Shown here piece after piece: positions 4,778 to 25,374 of a stretch of 60,347 nucleotides of DNA; position 1 is the first letter of the stretch; each line of letters begins with the position of its first letter. The stretch is from Pacificibacter marinus. Lineage in GTDB: Bacteria > Pseudomonadota > Alphaproteobacteria > Rhodobacterales > Rhodobacteraceae. The notes under the pieces were generated by a model. It was not told the DNA's origin and made no database searches. It was given only the letters and a program-made list of their open reading frames with translations. The stretch covers positions 1-60,347 of the forward strand of contig NZ_JAHKPU010000024.1 of assembly GCF_018860505.1 (NCBI RefSeq), read 5' to 3'. The position numbers and the translations under genes are program-made.

Positions 4778-5071
4778 ATGTCGCGCCGCGAAACACTTGA
4801 TTACGATGAAGCGCTCGATCCGGGGGGATTGATCCGCGAATCCTACCGCATTGAAAACATCACGATCCAAGAGGCGCGGTCGATCTTTTTGGATTGGGCA
4901 ATCAAAATTGGACCGGATTTGCGACCAGATATTGCGATCCGGCGCTTGATTGGCCTTTATGAGCAAGGGGCAGCGGACCATCATCCGATGACTTTGGTCT
5001 TGCGTGAAGGTTTGGTCAGTTTGACTGGCCCAAGCGTGCGGCGTGGCGGATCTCGTGCGCGTCGCGGTTAA
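4778..5071 (+). CDS. Small conserved-type protein of unknown function
   Basis: A 97-residue soluble protein that I do not recognise. It is acidic at the N-terminus and ends in an Arg/Gly-rich tail (RRGGSRARRG) that could touch nucleic acid or a phosphorylated partner. No signal peptide or membrane segment is seen. A good ribosome site (ACAGGAG) precedes the ATG. It follows glnE by 69 bp with no terminator between, so co-transcription is likely. Codon use resembles its neighbours, which supports a real gene. Confidence 0.7.
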   Translation: MSRRETLDYDEALDPGGLIRESYRIENITIQEARSIFLDWAIKIGPDLRPDIAIRRLIGLYEQGAADHHPMTLVLREGLVSLTGPSVRRGGSRARRG

Positions 5072-5255
5072 GGCGCGCGATACTTTCGATATGCGCAATT
5101 GACTCATACTGTGATCATTTGACTAAATTTCGCGTTTTCTCTCTGAGATAGGATAACGTATTCGTAAGCAGTTTTAGGCATATTTAGAGCATTAGAACAA
5201 AAAGACCCAAGGTGCTGAGGGCTTGGATGTGCCGATCGTGGAAATGGAGTTTTAC

Positions 5256-5762
5256 ATGCGCGTTAGAAAACTTAACGGAATGTTCGCGATTGCCAATCAG
5301 GTGGAGGTGAACACGGTCCAAGATTTGGCAAAAGCCGGTTACAAAACAATTATTTGCAATCGACCAAATCATGAAGGCCTTGATCAAGTTGACTTCAGCG
5401 CAATCGCGGCCGAGGCGCAGAAACTTGGTTTAAAAGCGGTTTATCTGCCAATTCATGAGAGAGGGGCAACCGAGCAGGATCAAGCGGCGTTTGATGACCA
5501 TATATTTGCCTGCCCTAAACCGATTGTCGCCTTCTGTCGCTCAGGCACGCGCCCAGCAGCGCTCTGGGCGAAATTCGATGTTGTACATAACGGTGGACAT
5601 GTAGGTGGTCCAGAGCGCCGTGTTGACGCGATGCGATCAGGTGCGATGTCTGCGCAACCTGCGGCAAGCATGGCTTATGCAGCAGGTTTCAGAGCGCCAA
5701 GACTGAGTGCCATTACAACAATCGGGTCGAGGGCATCGCGTATAAGCCGCAGATCGAGTTGA
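5256..5762 (+). CDS. TIGR01244/DUF442-type sulfurtransferase-like protein with an aberrant C-terminus
   Basis: From the ATG at 5256 (168 residues) the first 110 residues match the phosphatase-fold/rhodanese-like family found next to persulfide dioxygenases: LNGMFAIANQV, GYKTIICNRPNHE, and the active loop FCRSGTRPAALWA with its thiol cysteine. A close paralogue lies at 49977-50393. After ALWA the paralogue closes the domain with a GYDLRGM-type helix, whereas this protein runs into about 60 low-complexity Arg/Ala/Ser-rich residues. That tail may come from an old frameshift or be a lineage extension. The loop residues are intact, so activity is possible. It converges with eda and has no sulfur genes beside it. 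Confidence 0.7.
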   Translation: MRVRKLNGMFAIANQVEVNTVQDLAKAGYKTIICNRPNHEGLDQVDFSAIAAEAQKLGLKAVYLPIHERGATEQDQAAFDDHIFACPKPIVAFCRSGTRPAALWAKFDVVHNGGHVGGPERRVDAMRSGAMSAQPAASMAYAAGFRAPRLSAITTIGSRASRISRRSS

Positions 5763-5801
5763 TCCGCAGCTTATGTAAGTGTTTTTTGGAATGAGACAGC
5801 G

Positions 5802-6443
5802 TTAGCGCGACAGTGCAGCGGCCTCGCGTGCCAGTTCTTCGATGGCTTTCCAGTCGCCTTTGTTCACCAGATCATTCGGTGCAACCCATGAACCGCCAAC
5901 GCAAAGCGCGTTGGGCAAAGACAAATACTGGTGCGCCGTCTTCAGTGAAATGCCGCCGGTTGGACAGAATTTCATTTGCGGTAAAGGCGCGCCGATGGCT
6001 TTCAGCGCAGGGGCGCCGCCGTTGGCTTCCGCAGGGAAAAACTTGGCGACAGTATAGCCGCGCTCAAGCAGGCGCATCACATCTGAGGATGTCGCAGTGC
6101 CGGCCAACAATGGCATGTCCTGTGCTTCGCAAGCATCCAAAAGAGCGTCTGTTGCGCCAGGGGATACGCCGAATTTTGCGCCCGCAGCTTTGGCGTTTGT
6201 CACGTCTTGCGCCGTCAAAAGCGTGCCCGCGCCAACTGTGCCACCTTCGACTTTTGACATCTCTTTGATAACGTCAAGGGCGCAGGGGGTGCGCAAGGTC
6301 ACTTCGAGAGCTGGCAAACCGCCCGCGACAAGCGCTTCGGCCAATGGACGTGCATGGGCGACGTCATTGACAACAAGAACAGGAACGACGGGGGCAAGTG
6401 CGCAAATTTCGGCGCACAGAATGCTGGCCTCTTGTGGGGTCAT
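5802..6443 (-). CDS. eda: 2-dehydro-3-deoxy-6-phosphogluconate (KDPG) aldolase
   Basis: Splits KDPG into pyruvate and glyceraldehyde 3-phosphate, the last step of the Entner-Doudoroff path and the entry point of uronate catabolism. The 213-residue protein carries the Schiff-base lysine in VAKFFPAE and the proton-relay glutamate in ALEVTLRT. The start is the ATG at 6443, preceded by GGAG, which gives the usual family length; a longer upstream reading exists but adds an unrelated stretch. It lies 188 bp downstream of edd with its own candidate operator (6475-6486), so it may be read both from edd and from its own promoter. Confidence 0.95.
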   Translation of the reverse strand: MTPQEASILCAEICALAPVVPVLVVNDVAHARPLAEALVAGGLPALEVTLRTPCALDVIKEMSKVEGGTVGAGTLLTAQDVTNAKAAGAKFGVSPGATDALLDACEAQDMPLLAGTATSSDVMRLLERGYTVAKFFPAEANGGAPALKAIGAPLPQMKFCPTGGISLKTAHQYLSLPNALCVGGSWVAPNDLVNKGDWKAIEELAREAAALSR

Positions 6444-6474
6444 GGTGGGGCTCCTTATGCCACAAAATAGGGGT

Positions 6475-6486
6475 GTTAGCCCTAAC
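6475..6486. promoter_or_regulatory. Candidate LacI-type operator upstream of eda
   Basis: GTTAGCCCTAAC is a near-perfect palindrome that differs in one central base from the two GTTAGCGCTAA boxes upstream of edd. It sits 32 bp before the eda start. Sharing one motif between edd and eda suggests one regulator for both. Confidence 0.55.
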
Positions 6487-6631
6487 AAGCCTATTGTCAC
6501 GCTCAGGTCAAGGGACAGTCGCTTTTGCAACGCGTTTGAGCATCACACAATGCGCCAAACTTATGAAAATGCCGCCCACAGGGTTGTGAGCGGCACATTC
6601 TTAGATCAACAGCTGGGCTTGATGGCCGATC

Positions 6632-8437
6632 CTATAGGATTGTCGCAGCGCCTTCGGTGGCATTGCCCGCGTTTTGGCGGAACACTTCGAACAGCTCGCG
6701 GCCCATGCCGATGCTATTGGCGGACAAATCAATTTGCACGGCGTCGCGGGTGTCAAAATCTGCCTCAAGCACTTCTAAAGTGCCTGCAACCGCATCCACG
6801 CGGACCAAGTCGCCATCGCGCAGTTTTGCGATCGGTCCACCATTTGCGGCCTCTGGTGAGACGTGAATGCAAGCGGGCACTTTACCAGAGGCCCCAGACA
6901 TACGGCCATCCGTGACCAGCGCCACTTTGAGACCGCGATCTTGCAGGATTGATAGAGTAGGGGTCAAGGAATGCAATTCGGGCATACCGTTGGCACGCGG
7001 ACCTTGGAAGCGCACGACAACCACGGTGTCATCAGTGAATTCGCCATTGTTAAAGGCGGGTTTCACATCGCGTTGATCGTGGAAAATGCGAACTTTGGCC
7101 TCAACGATGCGGCGCTCTGGGGCCACGGCAGAGACTTTCATCACGCCGCGTCCAATATTGCCTTTAAGCTCTTTCAGGCCACCGGTTTTTTGAAAAGCAT
7201 CAGCGACTGGGCGCAAAATACGATCGTTCAGCGTCTCTTTCGAGCCGTCTTCAAACACCAATGCGCCGTCTTTGATTTTCGGATCTTTGGTGTACAGTGA
7301 TAGCCCATCACCAGCGATGGTTTTGACATCTTCATGCAGCAAACCATTTTCCAAAAGCTGCCCAATCATATAACCAAGCCCGCCGGCCGCGTGGAAGTGG
7401 TTCACATCCGCTAAGCCGTTCGGATAGACTTTGGCCATCAAAGGGATCACTTCTGAGATATCAGAGAAATCTTGAAGGTCCAGAATGATGCCTGCAGCAC
7501 GCGCCATGGCTGGCATGTGCAACACAAGATTGGTCGAGCCACCGGTTGCCATCAAGCCAACAAGCCCGTTCACAAAAGCTTTTTCATCCAAAATCTGCGA
7601 CGTCGGACGGAAATCATTGCCCAGATTGGTAATCTCAAGGGCTCGTTTGGCCGCGGCTGCGGTCAATGCGTCACGCAGATCGGTGCCTGGATTGACAAAG
7701 GATGCGCCGGGCAGGTGCAGCCCCATGATTTCCATCAACATTTGGTTGGTGTTGGCTGTGCCGTAAAACGTACAGGTGCCAGATCCGTGATATGACGCCA
7801 TTTCAGCCTTCATCAACTCTTCACGACCAATTTCGCCAGTCGCAAATTGCTGACGCACTTTGGCTTTTTCATCATTCGGAATGCCCGAGGTCATCGGACC
7901 CGCTGGAACAAACACGGACGGAATGTGGCCATATGTCGCCGCCGCCATCACAAGGCCCGGGACGATTTTGTCACAAATTCCAAAGAACACGGCGGCGTCA
8001 AAGCAATTGTGCGACAGGCCCACACCCGCAGCCAAGGCGATCACATCACGGGAAAAGAGGGACAGTTCCATGCCTGGTTGACCTTGGGTGACACCATCAC
8101 ACATCGCTGGAACACCACCTGCGACTTGGGCTGTTGCACCAACAGAGCGCGCCGCATCGCGGATGATGTCGGGGTAATGTTCGTAAGGTTTATGTGCGGA
8201 CAGCATGTCATTATATGCGGTGATGATGCCAAGGTTTGCCGCGCGATCTGCAACAAGCGCATCTTTGTCTTGTCCCATGGCCGCGTAGGCATGAGCTTGG
8301 TTGCCGCAGCTCAAATGTGCGCGCACAGGGCCCGCGTTTGCAGCAACGCCCATCCGCTCTAAGTATGCGTCACGTGTTGGGCGTGAGCGCTCTATGATAC
8401 GGTCGGTGACGGCTTTGATCTGTGCATTAAGTGACAT
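6632..8437 (-). CDS. edd: 6-phosphogluconate dehydratase
   Basis: Dehydrates 6-phosphogluconate to KDPG, the committed Entner-Doudoroff step, using an iron-sulfur cluster. The 601-residue protein shows the IlvD/Edd hallmarks [14 protein letters not shown] and [10 protein letters not shown], with cluster cysteines conserved, and [20 protein letters not shown] near the C-terminus. I use the ATG at 8437; a TTG at 8458 is in frame but gives a longer, less typical N-terminus. It is divergent from a small gene at 8841 and is followed by eda. Two phased palindromes lie 72-104 bp upstream of the start, so regulation by a sugar-responsive repressor is likely. Confidence 0.96.
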
Positions 8438-8508
8438 GGAGCGGGCCTTTGCGGTCAATTTTAGGGTGAATTGCGTTTTGTGGGCTTGCGTGAGTTTATA
8501 TACATCTC

Positions 8509-8541
8509 GTTAGCGCTAAACTATACTGTGTTAGCGCTAAC
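8509..8541. promoter_or_regulatory. Tandem TTAGCGCTAA operators upstream of edd
   Basis: Two palindromes, GTTAGCGCTAAA (8509-8520) and the perfect GTTAGCGCTAAC (8530-8541), have centres exactly 21 bp apart, which is two helical turns. The central CG and symmetrical arms are typical of LacI-family sites. No LacI-family gene is in the window. Binding is inferred. Confidence 0.7.
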
Positions 8542-8840
8542 TTAAAGCCGCAGTGCAGAAATGTCCAGAACCATTTGCCACATCGGCGTGCGGTATAGCA
8601 TCTGCCTGTTCTTTCATCGACGAACACCAGTGAACTGGATGATGCCAAGGTATTTCTTGCGACACGATCCGGTATTTCCAACATGTTGCGCTGCAATGCA
8701 GCAGGCGCATGGCGGGGTTTCGCAATGGGTAGTGGTGGTCTGAGGCTGTGAGGCGTAGGTATGGATCAAGCAATACGACAGTGTCCTTGACCTAGGATAC
8801 AGAGCGCAAAACAAAATTACGACTTAAAAGGAAATATAAC
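8542..8840. other. Intergenic stretch between edd operators and the 53-residue gene
   Basis: About 300 bp without a convincing gene on either strand; the short open frames here lack ribosome sites. It must hold the divergent promoters. A TTGACC at 8787-8792 could be the -35 box for the small gene at 8841, but no clear -10 follows at the right distance. Confidence 0.4.
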
Positions 8841-9002
8841 ATGACAAACGCACCAGTCTCACAACTCGAACTCGTTGCAATCGAAGCGCGTGCACGTCAA
8901 CTTCGTGCTGAAACTGCTCTGAGCATCGTTACAACCGTTTCCAAATGGGTTCGTCGCCTGTTTTCCTTCGGTGCGACCTCAACAGCACAAAGCGCTGCGT
9001 AA
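8841..9002 (+). CDS. 53-residue helical basic protein (resembles RSP_7527-type)
   Basis: An ATG with a good ribosome site (AAAAGGAAATA) opens a 53-codon frame. The core AIEARARQLRAETALS is followed by a KWVRRLF amphipathic segment. From memory this resembles short Rhodobacterales proteins annotated as RSP_7527 family, of unknown function; I cannot check that here. It is predicted to be mostly helical and positively charged and may bind RNA or a membrane surface. A strong intrinsic terminator follows at 9085, so the gene is probably a separate, well-expressed unit. Confidence 0.65.
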   Translation: MTNAPVSQLELVAIEARARQLRAETALSIVTTVSKWVRRLFSFGATSTAQSAA

Positions 9003-9084
9003 ATCTGATTTTGGTACGCTTGAGAGGGCTGCCTGATCAGATTATGACCAAAAATGATATACAGGTCTTTAGATAAGACCCAGA

Positions 9085-9112
9085 AAAATCCCGCAAAATG
9101 CTGCGGGATTTT
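9085..9112 (+). terminator. Intrinsic terminator after the 53-residue gene
   Basis: A perfect 11-bp stem (9085-9095 with 9102-9112), GC-rich at its centre and with A and T tracts at its outer ends, has a 6-base loop. It would work in both directions. Confidence 0.85.
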
Positions 9113-9181
9113 CTCATTCCTGCCTCAATTCGCCATCATGGTTAACACAGAATTAATGGGGAATACCCCGGAGGCAGAGCA

Positions 9182-9805
9182 ATGAAAACCGTCACTAAAC
9201 GCGTAAAAATGATCGCAGCAATCGGCCTCATGGTCAGTGCCGCAGCCTGTGCACCTGTTGAAACAGTGTCGCGTGCCGCGCCAATTGATGCTCCGCTTTC
9301 TGGGCAGGTCTCAGCCAAACCAAATTACATCCAGCCAGATTTTAAAGTCAGCAAGATCAATGTTTTCGTGCCAAAAGATTTAACCGTATCAGAAGCCAAT
9401 ACATATAAACCAAACGCTGACATTGTGTGGCGCGGAGATGCTTACGGCAATCGTTATGAACAAGTTCAAGCTGTTTTAGAAGCAGGGCTGGCGACAGGCG
9501 CGCGGGCATTTGATGGTGCAAAAGAAGTCATCGTCGATGTGCAATTGGTACAGTTTCACGCGCAAACCGAAAAAGTGCGTTACACCTTTGGTGGCGAACA
9601 CGAAATTATGTTTGCTATGACCATTCGCGACGCCCAGACAGGGGCCACACTCGTACCGCCGCGCTTGGTGGATGCAACTTTCGATGCTTTGGGTGGTATC
9701 GCTGCCGTAAATGCCGAAAAAGCTGGCGTGACACAGAAAGTACGGATCATCGAACGACTGGCAGAAGTGATCACAACTGAGCTGCAACAGCCCTACGCCT
9801 TCTGA
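9182..9805 (+). CDS. Lipoprotein of unknown function
   Basis: A 207-residue exported protein. The N-terminus is a lipoprotein signal (MKTVTKRVKM, hydrophobic core, then SAAACAPVE), so the mature protein starts at the cysteine near residue 24 and is lipid-anchored. The rest is a soluble alpha/beta domain without motifs I know. It may belong to the Rhodobacterales family DUF6778, but that is from memory. A strong ribosome site (CCGGAGG) precedes the ATG. It lies between a terminator and an rRNA methyltransferase gene 41 bp downstream. Confidence 0.8.
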   Translation: MKTVTKRVKMIAAIGLMVSAAACAPVETVSRAAPIDAPLSGQVSAKPNYIQPDFKVSKINVFVPKDLTVSEANTYKPNADIVWRGDAYGNRYEQVQAVLEAGLATGARAFDGAKEVIVDVQLVQFHAQTEKVRYTFGGEHEIMFAMTIRDAQTGATLVPPRLVDATFDALGGIAAVNAEKAGVTQKVRIIERLAEVITTELQQPYAF

Positions 9806-20720: not shown

Positions 20721-21029
20721 TTAAAGCGCTGCCAAGGCCTTTTGCCCCCAATTACAGGCAAGATTTGCGTCATCCAAAGCCGCATTCGGCAATGTCCAAT
20801 AGCCCATTGGCCCACGAGGCGTTTGAAATCGCGTGGCACCTGCGCTGGCAAGACTGTCAGCAAAATCGCCTTTGGCTTTCAGATACACCGTGCCGTCGCG
20901 ATCAAGCGAGGCAAAAATGACTCCGTCGCAATAAATGGCCAAGCCGCCCATCATCTTACGTGTTGAAATCATCCCGAGTTGTGCAAACAGCTCTTCGGCA
21001 AAAGTGATCATGCTTGGCGTGATGCTCAT
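20721..21029 (-). CDS. TfoX/Sxy N-terminal domain protein (copy 2)
   Basis: A 102-residue protein with the TfoX N-terminal pattern: helix, then ISTRKMMGGLAIYCDGVIFASL and VYLKAKGDFADSL. Sxy/TfoX co-activates CRP at competence promoters in gammaproteobacteria; in alphaproteobacteria its role is unknown. It overlaps the stop of the upstream TfoX-like gene by 4 bp (ATGA), so the two paralogues are coupled. It ends in WGQKALAAL, without the basic tail seen in its neighbour. Confidence 0.82.
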   Translation of the reverse strand: MSITPSMITFAEELFAQLGMISTRKMMGGLAIYCDGVIFASLDRDGTVYLKAKGDFADSLASAGATRFQTPRGPMGYWTLPNAALDDANLACNWGQKALAAL

Positions 21030-21421
21030 GACTTTTCAGCCTTTTGTTTGCGTGCCGCTTTTTTGGCTTTCGCAATGCGCTTTTTTTCGGTGGCTTTCAA
21101 TGCTGGCGCATAAGACAGACGCGCCCAGTCGCGCGCCTCATCAGGATCATCGCTTGCGCTTTCGGGCAGTGACATCAAAGAGGTCACAACCGTTTCACCG
21201 CCTTTTTTAGGATAGGTGAAAGGCTCGGACCCCGCGTCAACAAAGGCGTCAACAGTTGTCTTATCGGATTTCATATAAATCGTGCCGCCGATGATACAGG
21301 CGAACATGATGTCGCCCTCAACATATAAAGCACTGCCCCCGAAAAGCCCGCCAACTGTGATCTCGCTTATGTCGGCGAACAGGTCGCGGGCATGGGCGAT
21401 AAGTTCAGCAGGTGCAGGCAC
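21026..21421 (-). CDS. TfoX/Sxy N-terminal domain protein (copy 1) with lysine-rich tail
   Basis: A 131-residue paralogue of the next gene: ISEITVGGLFGGSALYVEGDIMFACI and TIYMKSDKTTVDAFVD match the TfoX core. It adds a strongly basic C-terminal tail (about 20 Lys/Ala/Arg residues after APALKATEKK) suited to binding nucleic acid. It starts directly after the SufA-type gene stop, so these three genes form one tight minus-strand run. Competence involvement is not supported by other genes here. Confidence 0.82.
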   Translation of the reverse strand: MPAPAELIAHARDLFADISEITVGGLFGGSALYVEGDIMFACIIGGTIYMKSDKTTVDAFVDAGSEPFTYPKKGGETVVTSLMSLPESASDDPDEARDWARLSYAPALKATEKKRIAKAKKAARKQKAEKS

Positions 21422-21793
21422 TTACACGCCGCTTTGTTCGGACAGGCTTTCATCAAACTTGATACTTTCGCCGCAGCCGCAAGCGTCAACCACATTGGGA
21501 TTGCGGAACTTAAAACCAGATTCCAGCAAGGACACTTCGTAATCAATTTCAGTGCCAAACAAGAACATCTGCGCCATAGGCGCGATCATCACGCGGCCAC
21601 CATCTTGTTCGACCACTTCGTCCAGAGGATCGATGTCGTTCACGTAGTCCATGGTGTATTCCATGCCTGCGCAGCCGCCTTTTTTGATGCCAATGCGCAA
21701 GCCTTTGGAGCCATCTTTCTCCATCAGTTTTGCGATTTGTGCCGCCGCTTTGGGCGTGATGCTGACGGCTTGTTTGCCTGGAATACCGAACAT
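21422..21793 (-). CDS. A-type iron-sulfur carrier protein (SufA/ErpA-like)
   Basis: A 123-residue carrier that receives Fe-S clusters from a scaffold and passes them to apoproteins. The three ligand cysteines are in KKGGCAGMEY and DACGCGES. The ATG at 21793 has AAAGGAG six bases before it; the longer reading at 21841 overlaps the DUF3307 gene and is unlikely. No suf operon is nearby, but SufT is encoded at 24541-24903 on the same strand. Which A-type subfamily it belongs to needs a tree. Confidence 0.92.
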   Translation of the reverse strand: MFGIPGKQAVSITPKAAAQIAKLMEKDGSKGLRIGIKKGGCAGMEYTMDYVNDIDPLDEVVEQDGGRVMIAPMAQMFLFGTEIDYEVSLLESGFKFRNPNVVDACGCGESIKFDESLSEQSGV

Positions 21794-22580: not shown

Positions 22581-23224
22581 TATTGCTTTCCTGTTTCAAT
22601 ATTTATCAGTGCAATTCGAATTGCGATATACCCCGCGCTGTCGAGAGACTTTGTGATTGACTGGCGGGACTTGCCTAGTGCTTTGGCGATTTCTGTGTAT
22701 GTCGTTTTGTCTAATGGGGATAACATTCTAAGAAGTGGAGCGGCTTGTGCTGGTGTCCAGTCTTTAGATATGAAGTCCAGCAAAGTGGTGCACGCCAGAG
22801 TTTTCCCTCGAGAATAGTAGCCAATGCTAAATCCTGATTCTGGGGCAAAGCCTTTTATTATTTCTAGATTAGAGCCTGAGTTAGCAAAAACATGTGCCGT
22901 CTCATCATTGAGATTCAGTTCAAGTTGATTGTTGGTGTCTCCTTCAGCAATCCCAATATAGCTATCAAACTCACTGCCCTCAGCGCGCAAGGCCGCCCGA
23001 AACGCCAAAGCCGACCGCAGCGCATATTTCGGCTCGGCCAGCGCCACTTGCCAGCCATCGCCGCGATGGCGGGTAAAATGAAGGCTTTCCCCCATCCACT
23101 CCGCTTGCATCTCGGCACAGTCGCGCAAGGCGTCAAAAGCGCGTTCAAGCTTTTCGGGGCCCAGCGCGGTTGAGCCGACGATATCGCCAGTAAGAACGGC
23201 TATTTTGCGTGTTTTATCTGTCAT
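22580..23224 (-). CDS. SatD-like protein: cyclase-fold N-terminus plus C-terminal HTH
   Basis: A 214-residue protein. The N-terminal part, with IAVLTGDIVGSTALG and later RHRGDGWQVAL, recalls both SatD proteins (GDI-x-S motif) and class III nucleotide cyclases (DIVGST), so a nucleotide-binding role is plausible. The C-terminus holds a helix-turn-helix, TYTEIAKALGKSRQSITKSL. It starts three bases after a palindrome and has no Shine-Dalgarno sequence. The following DUF3307 gene overlaps by one base. The half of the gene encoding the C-terminus looks richer in AT than the other half. Four 30-bp-spaced palindromes upstream suggest that the HTH regulates its own operon. Neither cyclase activity nor DNA binding is shown. 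Confidence 0.75.
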   Translation of the reverse strand: MTDKTRKIAVLTGDIVGSTALGPEKLERAFDALRDCAEMQAEWMGESLHFTRHRGDGWQVALAEPKYALRSALAFRAALRAEGSEFDSYIGIAEGDTNNQLELNLNDETAHVFANSGSNLEIIKGFAPESGFSIGYYSRGKTLACTTLLDFISKDWTPAQAAPLLRMLSPLDKTTYTEIAKALGKSRQSITKSLDSAGYIAIRIALINIETGKQ

Positions 23225-23227
23225 GAT

Positions 23228-23335
23228 GCAGCCAATATAGGCTGCGTTTGTTGATATGCAACCTATTTAGGATGCGTTTGTCGTTTTGCACCCTGTTTAG
23301 GTTGCGTTTGGCAGTGCGCAGCCGATTTGGGCTGC
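23228..23335. repeat. Four palindromes in 30-bp tandem array upstream of the SatD-like gene
   Basis: Four inverted repeats of the form GCANCC-N6-GGNTGC lie at 23228-23245, 23258-23275, 23288-23305 and 23318-23335, with starts exactly 30 bp apart. The six-base centres are AT-rich in the first three (AATATA, TATTTA, TGTTTA). The 12-base spacers start GTTTG in three copies. On the minus strand the centre of the first copy (TATATT, 23234-23239) with TTGCAT (23256-23261) could be a -10/-35 pair, so operator and promoter would overlap. The spacing of about three helical turns favours cooperative binding on one face. Confidence 0.85.
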
Positions 23336-23355
23336 GCGTCAGCTTGGGGTCCACG

Positions 23356-24231
23356 TTAAGGCCCAAACCGCGTCGACGCACTCAACAATGTGCCAATCGC
23401 GTCCAAAGCAGCGCGGATGGGCGGATCATGACGGGCGTCATGATGGCTGACCAACCATTCTTCATGGGTGAGTGCATCAATCTCGGGCGAGACCTGCACC
23501 AGTTCGGGCATGGCGCGTCCAGCGAAAATGGGCAAAATCACGCGGGCTATGCCGCCAATGGCCAAATCGGCCTCAGCGCGGGGATCAGAGACGGTGCTGA
23601 TGATTTCATCGGGTTTGTTTTGCCGTAACCAGCGCTTTGATGGCGTTGTGGCAAGAGATTCGGGAAGGGTGATGTAACCCAATACGTCGGGGCTACGGGC
23701 GAATTCAGCATAAGCAATGCGTGCGGTACGCCGCCCTGCCAGCCATGTTTGATCAGGGCGCCTGTTGCGAATGCCTATGTCCGCTTCGCGCCGTGCAATG
23801 TCGACCATGGCGTCTGAAGAAACGAGCTCGGGCACCCACGGAACAGATGGCACCAAAGAGGCGTCTTGAGACCAAACCTCACCAAAATGCCGTGCGATGT
23901 ATTGTGTGGTCCAATGGCCTGCAGTGATGCGCACAAGGGAGCGTGTTTGCGTGGTGTTGAAGGCGGCCAAGTGTTGCGCGGCGGCGCGCAGATGTTCGAC
24001 CTCGGCGGCAAGGGCGCGCCCATCGCTGGTCAGCGTGTACCCGCGTGCGCCGCGCTCAAATAGACGCTTGCCCAAAGTGCGCTCCAAAGCCGTCATCCTG
24101 CGCGACAATGTGGGCGAGGGGGTGCCTGTGGTCTGCTCCGCCCCCACAAGACCGCCGCCGTCGACGACAGCGAGGAATAGCATGTAATCATCTAACTTGG
24201 GGGCGGTTTTGAGTTTGGGCTTATCTTTCAT
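23356..24231 (-). CDS. LysR-family transcriptional regulator
   Basis: A 291-residue regulator. The winged-helix part is seen as FLAVVDGGGLVGAEQ, PSPTLSRRMTALERTLGKRLFER and GYTLTSDGRAL, followed by a periplasmic-binding-like effector domain. The recognition helix is normal (SPTLSRRMTALE). Its target and effector are unknown. It is divergent from a small open frame at 24326 across a 94-bp gap, and its stop lies only 20 bp from the palindrome array of the SatD-like gene, which is transcribed in the same direction. Confidence 0.93.
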   Translation of the reverse strand: MKDKPKLKTAPKLDDYMLFLAVVDGGGLVGAEQTTGTPSPTLSRRMTALERTLGKRLFERGARGYTLTSDGRALAAEVEHLRAAAQHLAAFNTTQTRSLVRITAGHWTTQYIARHFGEVWSQDASLVPSVPWVPELVSSDAMVDIARREADIGIRNRRPDQTWLAGRRTARIAYAEFARSPDVLGYITLPESLATTPSKRWLRQNKPDEIISTVSDPRAEADLAIGGIARVILPIFAGRAMPELVQVSPEIDALTHEEWLVSHHDARHDPPIRAALDAIGTLLSASTRFGP

Positions 24232-24540: not shown

Positions 24541-24903
24541 TTACATAAAGCCAAGCTCTAGACGCGCTTCATCTGACATCATTTCCATGCCCCAAGGCGG
24601 TTCCCACGCCAGATCGACGTCAACTTGTTTGACGCCCGGCAACGGTTCAATCGCATCGGCGACCCAACCCGGCATTTCGCCCGCAACAGGACAGCCCGGT
24701 GCGGTGAGAGACATGATCACATGCACTTCGTTCTCAGTGTTGATTTCGATCGTGTAGATCAACCCGAGATCATAGATGTTCACGGGAATTTCAGGGTCGT
24801 AGACGGACCGGCAAGCTTCCACGATGGCTTCGTGAAGCGGGTGTTCCGTGTTTGAAGGCTTGATCAGCGGAGTGCCTTCGACGGGAGCGTCTGAATCTGT
24901 CAT
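24541..24903 (-). CDS. sufT: SufT/MIP18-family Fe-S assembly protein
   Basis: A 120-residue DUF59 protein that aids maturation of Fe-S proteins, especially under high demand. Seen: VYDPEIPVNIYDLGLIY (DPE motif), the conserved cysteine in SLTAPGCPVAGEMPGW, and VDVDLAWEPPWGMEMMSDEARLELG at the end, as in SufT. It usually closes suf operons. Here it stands apart from suf genes but in the same region as an A-type carrier gene (21422-21793). It is followed by a terminator. Confidence 0.92.
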   Translation of the reverse strand: MTDSDAPVEGTPLIKPSNTEHPLHEAIVEACRSVYDPEIPVNIYDLGLIYTIEINTENEVHVIMSLTAPGCPVAGEMPGWVADAIEPLPGVKQVDVDLAWEPPWGMEMMSDEARLELGFM

Positions 24904-25029: not shown

Positions 25030-25329
25030 ATGTCTATTCTCGCCGCCGATCAAAATCTGTTTCATGTCGATATCGAATATAAAGTCGATTTGGCGCTGGT
25101 TGAACCGCATATGCAAGCGCATCTGGCCTTTGTCGATGAAGGGTATGATCGTGGATTCTTTTTGGCTTCGGGTCCGAAGGTGCCGCGCACGGGTGGGGCG
25201 ATTTTGGCAACTGCGCCCAACCGCGAGATGCTGGAAACATTTTTAGCGCGCGATTCTTTTGTCACCGAAGGACTTATTGCCCTGACTGTGACTGAATTTG
25301 TGCCGCGCCGCACAGTTAATGGCCTGTAA
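25030..25329 (+). CDS. YciI-family protein
   Basis: A 99-residue ferredoxin-fold protein with the YciI pattern: HVDIEYKVDLALVEPHMQAHLAF, a conserved His, then GYDRGFFLASGPKVPRTGGAI and an Asp-bearing DSFVTEGL. The function of this family is uncertain; some act as muconolactone isomerase-like or dehalogenase partners. I use the ATG at 25030 with AAAGGG upstream because the longer reading at 24922 adds an atypical N-terminus. It converges with the RimK fusion gene. Confidence 0.88.
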   Translation: MSILAADQNLFHVDIEYKVDLALVEPHMQAHLAFVDEGYDRGFFLASGPKVPRTGGAILATAPNREMLETFLARDSFVTEGLIALTVTEFVPRRTVNGL

Positions 25330-25374
25330 CCAAAGAACCTGTAACCAAAGAAACTGTGACGGCGCGGTGAACCG

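Follow-up and report, generated by a model that had tools for sequence, protein, structure and literature searches.

Among described systems, AcuR and HipB come nearest in design to the locus reported here, although the regulator at this locus is itself of another kind, with a cyclase-like domain. AcuR, from the acuR-acuI-dddL operon of Rhodobacter sphaeroides, is described as an autoregulator whose site, an inverted repeat with a 6-nt spacer, overlaps the promoter, and whose gene lacks a Shine-Dalgarno site and is expressed from a leaderless transcript (PMC3017554). HipB, the HTH protein of a two-gene operon, is described as binding cooperatively to four operators of the form TATCC-N8-GGATA in its own hipBA promoter (PMC3920265). 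The locus considered here lies in a stretch of 60,347 nucleotides from Pacificibacter marinus, referred to throughout as the window. Its regulator comes from the same bacterial order as AcuR, is predicted to bind its own promoter, and resembles AcuR in its 6-nt-spaced inverted repeats overlapping the predicted promoter and in a gene that is predicted to be leaderless and, to judge by sequence, has no Shine-Dalgarno site. Unlike this regulator, AcuR belongs to the TetR family and has one operator described in the cited account (PMC3017554), whereas the window protein joins a cyclase-like domain to an HTH and stands behind a phased array. With HipB it shares the plan of an HTH protein in a two-gene operon with four dyads in its own promoter, but HipB, a Cro-like protein, serves as antitoxin to a kinase (PMC3920265), and the window regulator has a different fold. 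In further contrast to hipBA, the second gene here encodes a membrane protein, and steps of 28-30 bp recur across genera.

On the protein side, the mycobacterial Rv0386 joins a class III cyclase domain to a DNA-binding HTH; cyclases of this type are much larger proteins with a LuxR-type HTH, and we know of no operator array associated with them. SatD (PF16264) belongs to the sat operon of Streptococcus mutans. A gene with the annotation satD has been reported from Streptococcus pyogenes as an accessory one, present in 178 of 249 genomes, that nevertheless proved essential in those strains that were tested (PMC11323703); by annotation it is a possible parallel to the regulator. Our literature search, which covered subscription journals in small part, returned little on the SatD family or PF16264 and no paper bringing most of the subjects SatD, HTH, operator, autoregulation and nucleotidyl cyclase together; in the same search DUF3307 was found by name just in a phage annotation table.

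A regularly spaced dyad array upstream of a two-gene operon

An earlier note, made from the letters of the window, had reported four GCANCC-N6-GGNTGC inverted repeats that start exactly 30 bp apart, the first of them three bases from the start codon of a gene that it called SatD-like, with GTTTG shared by the spacers. All of this was recovered: the pattern has four exact matches across 23228-23335, with start-to-start distances of 30, 30 and 30 bp, and TRF likewise detected a 30-bp period. Bases 23225-23227 are all that separate the proximal dyad from the regulator ATG (23222-23224, minus strand), and GTTTG opens all three 12-nt linkers on the plus strand, a feature kept only in part among relatives. 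The observation is thus confirmed (Table 1). The note had further placed the spacing close to three helical turns; at 10.5 bp per turn, however, 30 bp makes 2.86 turns, and steps in the family run from 28 to 30 bp and are mostly 29, which rules out an exact phasing of the sites.

The single dyad occurs at nine places in the 3.65-Mb assembly, four of them within the window array, compared with three for a reversed-pattern control. A 48-bp double unit with at most three mismatches occurs at four places genome-wide (control, 0): three overlapping places without mismatch, all in the window array and with no such match elsewhere in the genome, and one place outside the array with three mismatches. 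In repeating a single dyad at constant steps within the promoter region of the presumed binder's gene, the locus shows what would be expected of an autoregulatory array.

Table 1 Positions of the features discussed, in coordinates of the window
Feature	Position	Strand	Description
Operator 1 (proximal dyad; putative)	23228..23245	-	gene-strand GCAGCC-TATATT-GGCTGC; ends 3 nt before start codon
Operator 2 (putative)	23258..23275	-	exact dyad match
Operator 3 (putative)	23288..23305	-	exact dyad match
Operator 4 (most upstream; putative)	23318..23335	-	20 bp past LysR stop codon
Candidate -10 box TATATT	23234..23239	-	spacer of operator 1; putative function, from spacer composition
Candidate weak -35 TTGCAT	23256..23261	-	operator 2 inner end plus two linker bases; putative, read from sequence
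SatD-like regulator, 214 aa	22580..23224	-	class III cyclase-like N-terminal domain and C-terminal HTH (101-homologue profile)
Recognition helix, residues 186-194 (SRQSITKSL)	22643..22669	-	covariation with the half-site: R187 with base 1, Q188 with base 2, K192 with base 5
DUF3307 membrane protein, 254 aa	21816..22580	-	PF11750, E 9.5e-15; 55.2 bits (gathering score 23)
LysR-type gene	23356..24231	-	upstream of array; Pfam; precedes 15/105 homologous loci
FeS_assembly_P (SufT/PaaD-like) gene	24541..24903	-	Pfam; usual upstream neighbour, 89/105 loci
Fe-S_biosyn (IscA/HesB-like) gene	21422..21793	-	Pfam; downstream border of module
Low-score homologous loci without helix Arg	L040, L046, L053, L070, L073, L081, L084, L099, L112, L113

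The regulator and its membrane partner

Searches of Pfam with the 214-aa regulator gave no family above cut-off and weak HTH-type matches around residues 160-195, and NCBIfam likewise gave weak HTH-type matches and nothing stronger. A profile built from 101 homologues was more informative. Against PDB sequences its positions 2-99 matched the class III cyclase Ma1120 (PDB 4wp8, 4wp9) at E 4.3e-6, and positions 150-202 matched HTH regulators; a single-sequence search reached E 0.001. Similarity to a solved class III structure is therefore a property of the N-terminal part, the match spanning the first 100 positions only, and the C-terminal HTH sets the family apart from these cyclases. The two aspartates expected of a class III cyclase are present, D14 in 107 of 108 regulator sequences and D56 also in 107 of 108; we take them to be metal-binding from the Ma1120 alignment and from the motifs of cyclases. 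Position 118, a candidate for the cyclase arginine, is Arg in 65 of the 108 sequences. Predicted structures built from five-sequence alignments had mean pLDDT values of 47.7 (regulator) and 39.4 (DUF3307 protein), too poor to use.

PF16264 does not match the window regulator at E 1; it matches 4 of the 101 homologues at E <= 0.01 (best 8.7e-5), the likeness in two proteins running over the first 50-60 residues with a best E of 2.5e-5, and the scores of the Vibrio lentus homologue (24.5 bits) and of L065 (18.4 bits) lie below the gathering score of 29. A six-frame search with the same model found it in 0 of 31 genomes, where the controls were silent as well. SatD-like is therefore fair as a loose label for a distant kinship, and not as a statement of membership. 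Among phage proteins, the regulator HTH resembles the D5-like regulators of phrog_323 (E 8e-4), a search of 50,697 phage records (E 0.01) brought up no homologue of the regulator, and none was confirmed in viral contigs, in which 28 stretches fitted a pattern.

The second gene belongs to PF11750 (DUF3307) with a score above the gathering threshold, and its first bases are shared with the last ones of the regulator gene. This pairing is nearly constant, a DUF3307 gene lying downstream of the regulator on the same strand at 104 of the 105 loci compared below; in 50 of them the two frames overlap, the DUF3307 match starting 8 or 4 nt ahead of the regulator frame's end. Among 108 DUF3307 proteins, the window copy included, residues H12, D16, Q20, H37, H63, D67, D88, Q89 and H92 are nearly invariant (103-105 of 108), and E176/R177, K199 and R203 are shared in the same way. 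So many conserved His, Asp and Gln residues suggest that DUF3307 is more likely a membrane-embedded enzyme or transporter than a simple pore. The set looks like that of a membrane-embedded metal-dependent enzyme. The protein also resembles the membrane proteins of phrog_2470 (E 3.2e-13).

Two observations concern the wider neighbourhood. Downstream of the IscA-like gene, two adjacent TfoX_N-domain genes at 20721-21421 overlap by 4 bp, and a 15-bp tandem repeat (25323-25357, 2.3 copies, 95% match) lies just below the end of a RimK-like gene (25375).

The array recurs in relatives that carry the regulator gene

Homologues of the regulator were found in 19 of 61 genomes that comprised its own and those of relatives, in 87 of 394 family genomes sampled at roughly one for each genus (three of these matches weak), in 9 of 289 class genomes and in 12 of 299 phylum genomes. 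Three of the class-level genomes and four of the phylum-level genomes are family members; the remaining six of the nine class-level matches (L054-L059) were weak matches to other cyclases and were rejected as homologues. The same-genus loci come from Celeribacter and Pacificibacter contigs, Celeribacter being placed by the NCBI taxonomy in the Rhodobacterales, family Roseobacteraceae. Once duplicates were set aside, upstream DNA was analysed at 105 loci, of which 97 belong to the family, where group codes indicate about 80 genera, and 8 lie elsewhere in the phylum. This count follows removal of duplicates (L020-L024, L041, L052 and L060) and of the other cyclases, and of the 87 matched family genomes it leaves out two that were partial (G386, G315) and three that were weak (G074, G142, G180). 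The weakest homologue, L068, is within the 105 loci and outside the protein alignment A4, as are the close copies L006, L009 and L012.

Dyads were first counted in pairs with no motif specified. Similar dyads at lags of 28, 29 and 30 bp numbered 26, 90 and 57, against 0.10-0.15 in shuffled sequences, and a second peak appeared at 56-60 bp. A small peak at 25 bp comprised 11 pairs; ten of these reflect dyads with a spacing of about 29 bp whose register had been displaced, and the remaining one, at L104, is a chance pair. A calibrated array score of at least 8 was reached by 80 of the 105 loci and by 1 of 2100 shuffles, on which ground a chance origin of the array was rejected; a score of at least 6 was reached by 90 loci (shuffle rate 0.33%). 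Scoring with lag triples that overlapped neither 28-30 bp nor its double yielded no more than 2 loci. The earlier note had named absence of the array upstream of homologous pairs in relatives as the outcome that would count against it; arrays scoring at least 6 were in fact present at 82 of 97 family loci and at all 8 of the other phylum loci. These arrays hold two (35 loci), three (35), four (19) or five dyads (1). Within the family the steps measure 29 bp (87 steps), 30 bp (51) or 28 bp (15), and outside it 28 bp (9) or 29 bp (4). The step also follows the half-site class, C at base 5 going with 30 bp (42 of 51 steps) and other bases with 29 bp (80 of 102).

We then considered genomes that lack the gene. 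In 12 chosen relatives without the regulator, the SufT-like gene was present in 11, with an IscA-like gene immediately after it in 8, farther off in 2 and not seen in 1. Over whole 3.3-kb regions these loci scored 4-7, whereas three gene-bearing loci scored 16-22, values of 6-7 being uncalibrated over 3.3 kb since the shuffle calibration came from 206-bp stretches. Four family genomes keep SufT-like and DUF3307 genes with no profile-detectable regulator, and they scored 4-5; these four remain from seven regions taken, after setting aside one at a contig end (L150) and two without a DUF3307 model hit (L151 and L153). No array was seen at any of these regulator-less loci, even where DUF3307 stays, and the array thus depends on the presence of the regulator gene. 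One of the four, L152, has its SufT-like and DUF3307 genes separated by an acetyltransferase-like frame.

Recognition-helix residues covary with half-site bases

The half-sites fall into several classes: GCANCC in the window and its allies, GCAAGC in most loci, and TCAAGC, GAAAGC and others. Across the 86 loci of alignment A4 with a score of at least 6, these classes go with residues of the recognition helix. Arg at 187 (helix position 2) and G at base 1 occur together at 71 loci and are both missing at 13, with 2 exceptions (agreement at 84 of 86), and Lys at 192 (helix position 7) and C at base 5 occur together at 23 and are both missing at 62, with 1 exception (85 of 86). The crossed helix-base pairs gave no significant association (p 0.34 and 0.06). 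In a scan of all 1206 residue-by-base pairs over 85 loci, R187 with base 1 ranked first, S193 and K192 with base 5 ranked second and third, and for base 2 the strongest residue was Q188, while no clear helix partner emerged for bases 3, 4 and 6. One locus, L036, was kept out of both the scan and the test that follows, its half-site having been called in a shifted register.

Changes were also placed on a tree built from the N-terminal 150 residues only. Every helix change shared its branch and direction with the matching base change (R187, 4 of 4; K192, 5 of 5; Q188, 4 of 4; 13 of 13 overall), the matching base changes on the tree numbering 5 at base 1, 6 at base 5 and 7 at base 2. Two mismatched controls, neither of them involving Q188, shared 0 of 4 and 0 of 5 branches (0 of 9). 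The p-values of this branch test assume equal branches, use one parsimony reconstruction and were obtained once the pairs had been chosen. A stricter test with independent pairs found 3 supported pairs in one case and 2 in the other; its random pairings were at no time discordant, and the pairs are too few for significance. On the basis of this covariation, the regulator very probably binds its own operators, and the pairings would amount to a natural specificity code, with Arg for G1, Gln for C2 and Lys for C5.

Promoter features of the proximal dyad

The earlier note had also proposed that the centre of the first dyad doubles as a -10 box and that the start codon has no ribosome site, and comparison across loci supports both proposals. 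The last dyad lies 0-4 nt before the assigned start codon at 57 of 90 loci and overlaps the codon by one base at 2 more; start codons were set by rule, so single loci may be wrong. In the 59 loci with a gap of at most 5 nt, the central two spacer positions of the proximal dyad are T in 83% and A in 86%, compared with 43% and 43% in 122 upstream dyads, and the spacer is exactly TATATT at 14 of the 59. A Shine-Dalgarno-like core is found at just 4 of these 59 loci, against 13 of 28 with a gap of at least 11 nt (Fisher p 3.7e-5). The missing ribosome site and the -10-like spacer together lead us to predict a leaderless start: the -10 box would lie in the proximal dyad, the transcript would have almost no leader, and regulator-DUF3307 operons would be mostly leaderless. 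In the window, the candidate -35 sits 16 nt from the candidate -10. A simple consensus scan reported no sigma-70 promoter in 23180-23420, missing the candidate -35 as well, and the accompanying terminator scan found nothing.

A proposed autoregulatory switch and its alternatives

The best explanation of these results, and one that we consider likely, is that the cyclase-like HTH regulator binds the four-operator array and autoregulates its own operon; the control is probably autorepression. The four dyads would be operators for the protein encoded directly behind them, each taken by one regulator dimer, with the cyclase-like N-terminal domain presumably mediating dimerisation and sensing the ligand. 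Dimers on adjacent dyads, at steps of 28-30 bp, would bind together. We propose that, with the proximal dyad covering the -10 region and the start of a (nearly) leaderless transcript, its occupancy would shut off the regulator-DUF3307 operon, and that the upstream dyads would steepen the switch. A signal at the cyclase-like domain, possibly a nucleotide, would then release the regulator, and the level of DUF3307, a membrane protein with several helices, would rise.

The same elements could be arranged differently, with the regulator activating from the upstream dyads and the proximal dyad alone repressing at high concentration, as a homeostatic switch. Such a reading would suit upstream dyads that extend to about 110 bp before the start codon, where activators can bind, a promoter that may need help given that no good -35 was found, and a dyad copy number ranging from 2 to 5. 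The position of the proximal dyad over the candidate -10 in short-gap loci nonetheless favours repression, and we regard activation as unlikely. We give still less weight to a toxin-antitoxin-like module, in which the HTH protein would act as antitoxin and repress its own operon, DUF3307 would be a membrane toxin, and the array would serve to sense their ratio as in hipBA or relBE. Four family genomes keep DUF3307 behind a SufT-like gene with no detectable regulator, which makes a strict need for the regulator unlikely; the conserved His/Asp set of DUF3307 is more like that of an enzyme or transporter; and the defence-system models of PADLOC returned nothing beyond a weak HTH match (mad1, E 0.0066). 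These points stand against the overlap of the two genes, the likeness of the multi-site operator to the four described for HipB (PMC3920265), and the S. pyogenes gene annotated satD, reported as accessory yet essential where tested (PMC11323703).

Another protein might bind the array, for example the product of the LysR-type gene that lies directly upstream of it in the window. We consider this very improbable. LysR precedes just 15 of the 105 loci, on which ground it was rejected as the binder; the gene is thus not the reason for the array, as the earlier note had maintained. Arrays are also found where the SufT-like gene is directly upstream instead (L007, L011 and L019), and it is with the HTH encoded downstream that the half-sites covary. 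That the units act as RNA hairpins of a leader or attenuator deserves almost no credence and was rejected, even though each one is an inverted repeat. The presumed start lies downstream of the array, and in 72 GCANCC operators the arms pair in 96-100% at positions 1-3, in 88% at positions 5-6 and in just 38% at position 4, so it is the letter and not the pairing that matters and the signal is one of DNA, not RNA.

Returning to the autoregulatory switch, its most far-reaching form is one that we hold tentatively and think rather doubtful as a whole: an undescribed class of one-component regulator in which a class III cyclase-like palm, with both Asp residues of the presumed metal site retained, senses or makes a nucleotide signal, the protein is bound as a filament over phased operators, and it switches DUF3307 as a membrane-embedded metalloenzyme or effector. 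If true, a stress or defence module of the cyclic-nucleotide kind would here be joined to the switch of its own promoter, and the cyclase-like regulator would have a readable three-position protein-DNA recognition code. In its plainer form, the switch already turns a little-studied gene pair into a regulatory system with a named target DNA, a probable binder, candidate contact residues and bases, and a membrane protein as its likely regulated product. A helix and half-sites that coevolve over about 80 genera should be useful for studying how repressors change specificity, and the signal of the cyclase-like domain is a question now within reach of a promoter reporter.

Plasmid-borne copies and exceptional loci

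Fifteen of the 105 loci score below 6. In ten of them a residue other than Arg occupies helix position 2 (8 Gln, 1 Lys and 1 Pro; Table 1), and these homologues may bind another motif or may have lost DNA binding. The other five have at least one dyad of the family half-site kind, and L015 has two at 31 bp.

Seven plasmid records were examined after the rule had been drawn from the main loci, and five reached an array score of at least 7: Vibrio lentus, two Pseudoalteromonas and two Salinivibrio. The Vibrio lentus plasmid has three TTAGCC dyads at 28 bp and a helix with T2 and K7; the two Pseudoalteromonas plasmids have GTAACC half-sites and R2 and K7; and the two Salinivibrio plasmids have weaker arrays (TTTGCT/TTAGCC) and N2 and K7, in each case as predicted. 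The Segatella copri copy has a weak array, scoring 5 or 9 by the start chosen, that is a misfit with its helix, and the Sphingomonas insulae copy (L132) shows no array, though its helix predicts one. On the Sphingomonas insulae plasmid the gene pair (region 4983-9434) adjoins an annotated Pycsar effector and an adenylate/guanylate cyclase and lies near a TIR-domain gene, neighbours that give it a defence-like setting.
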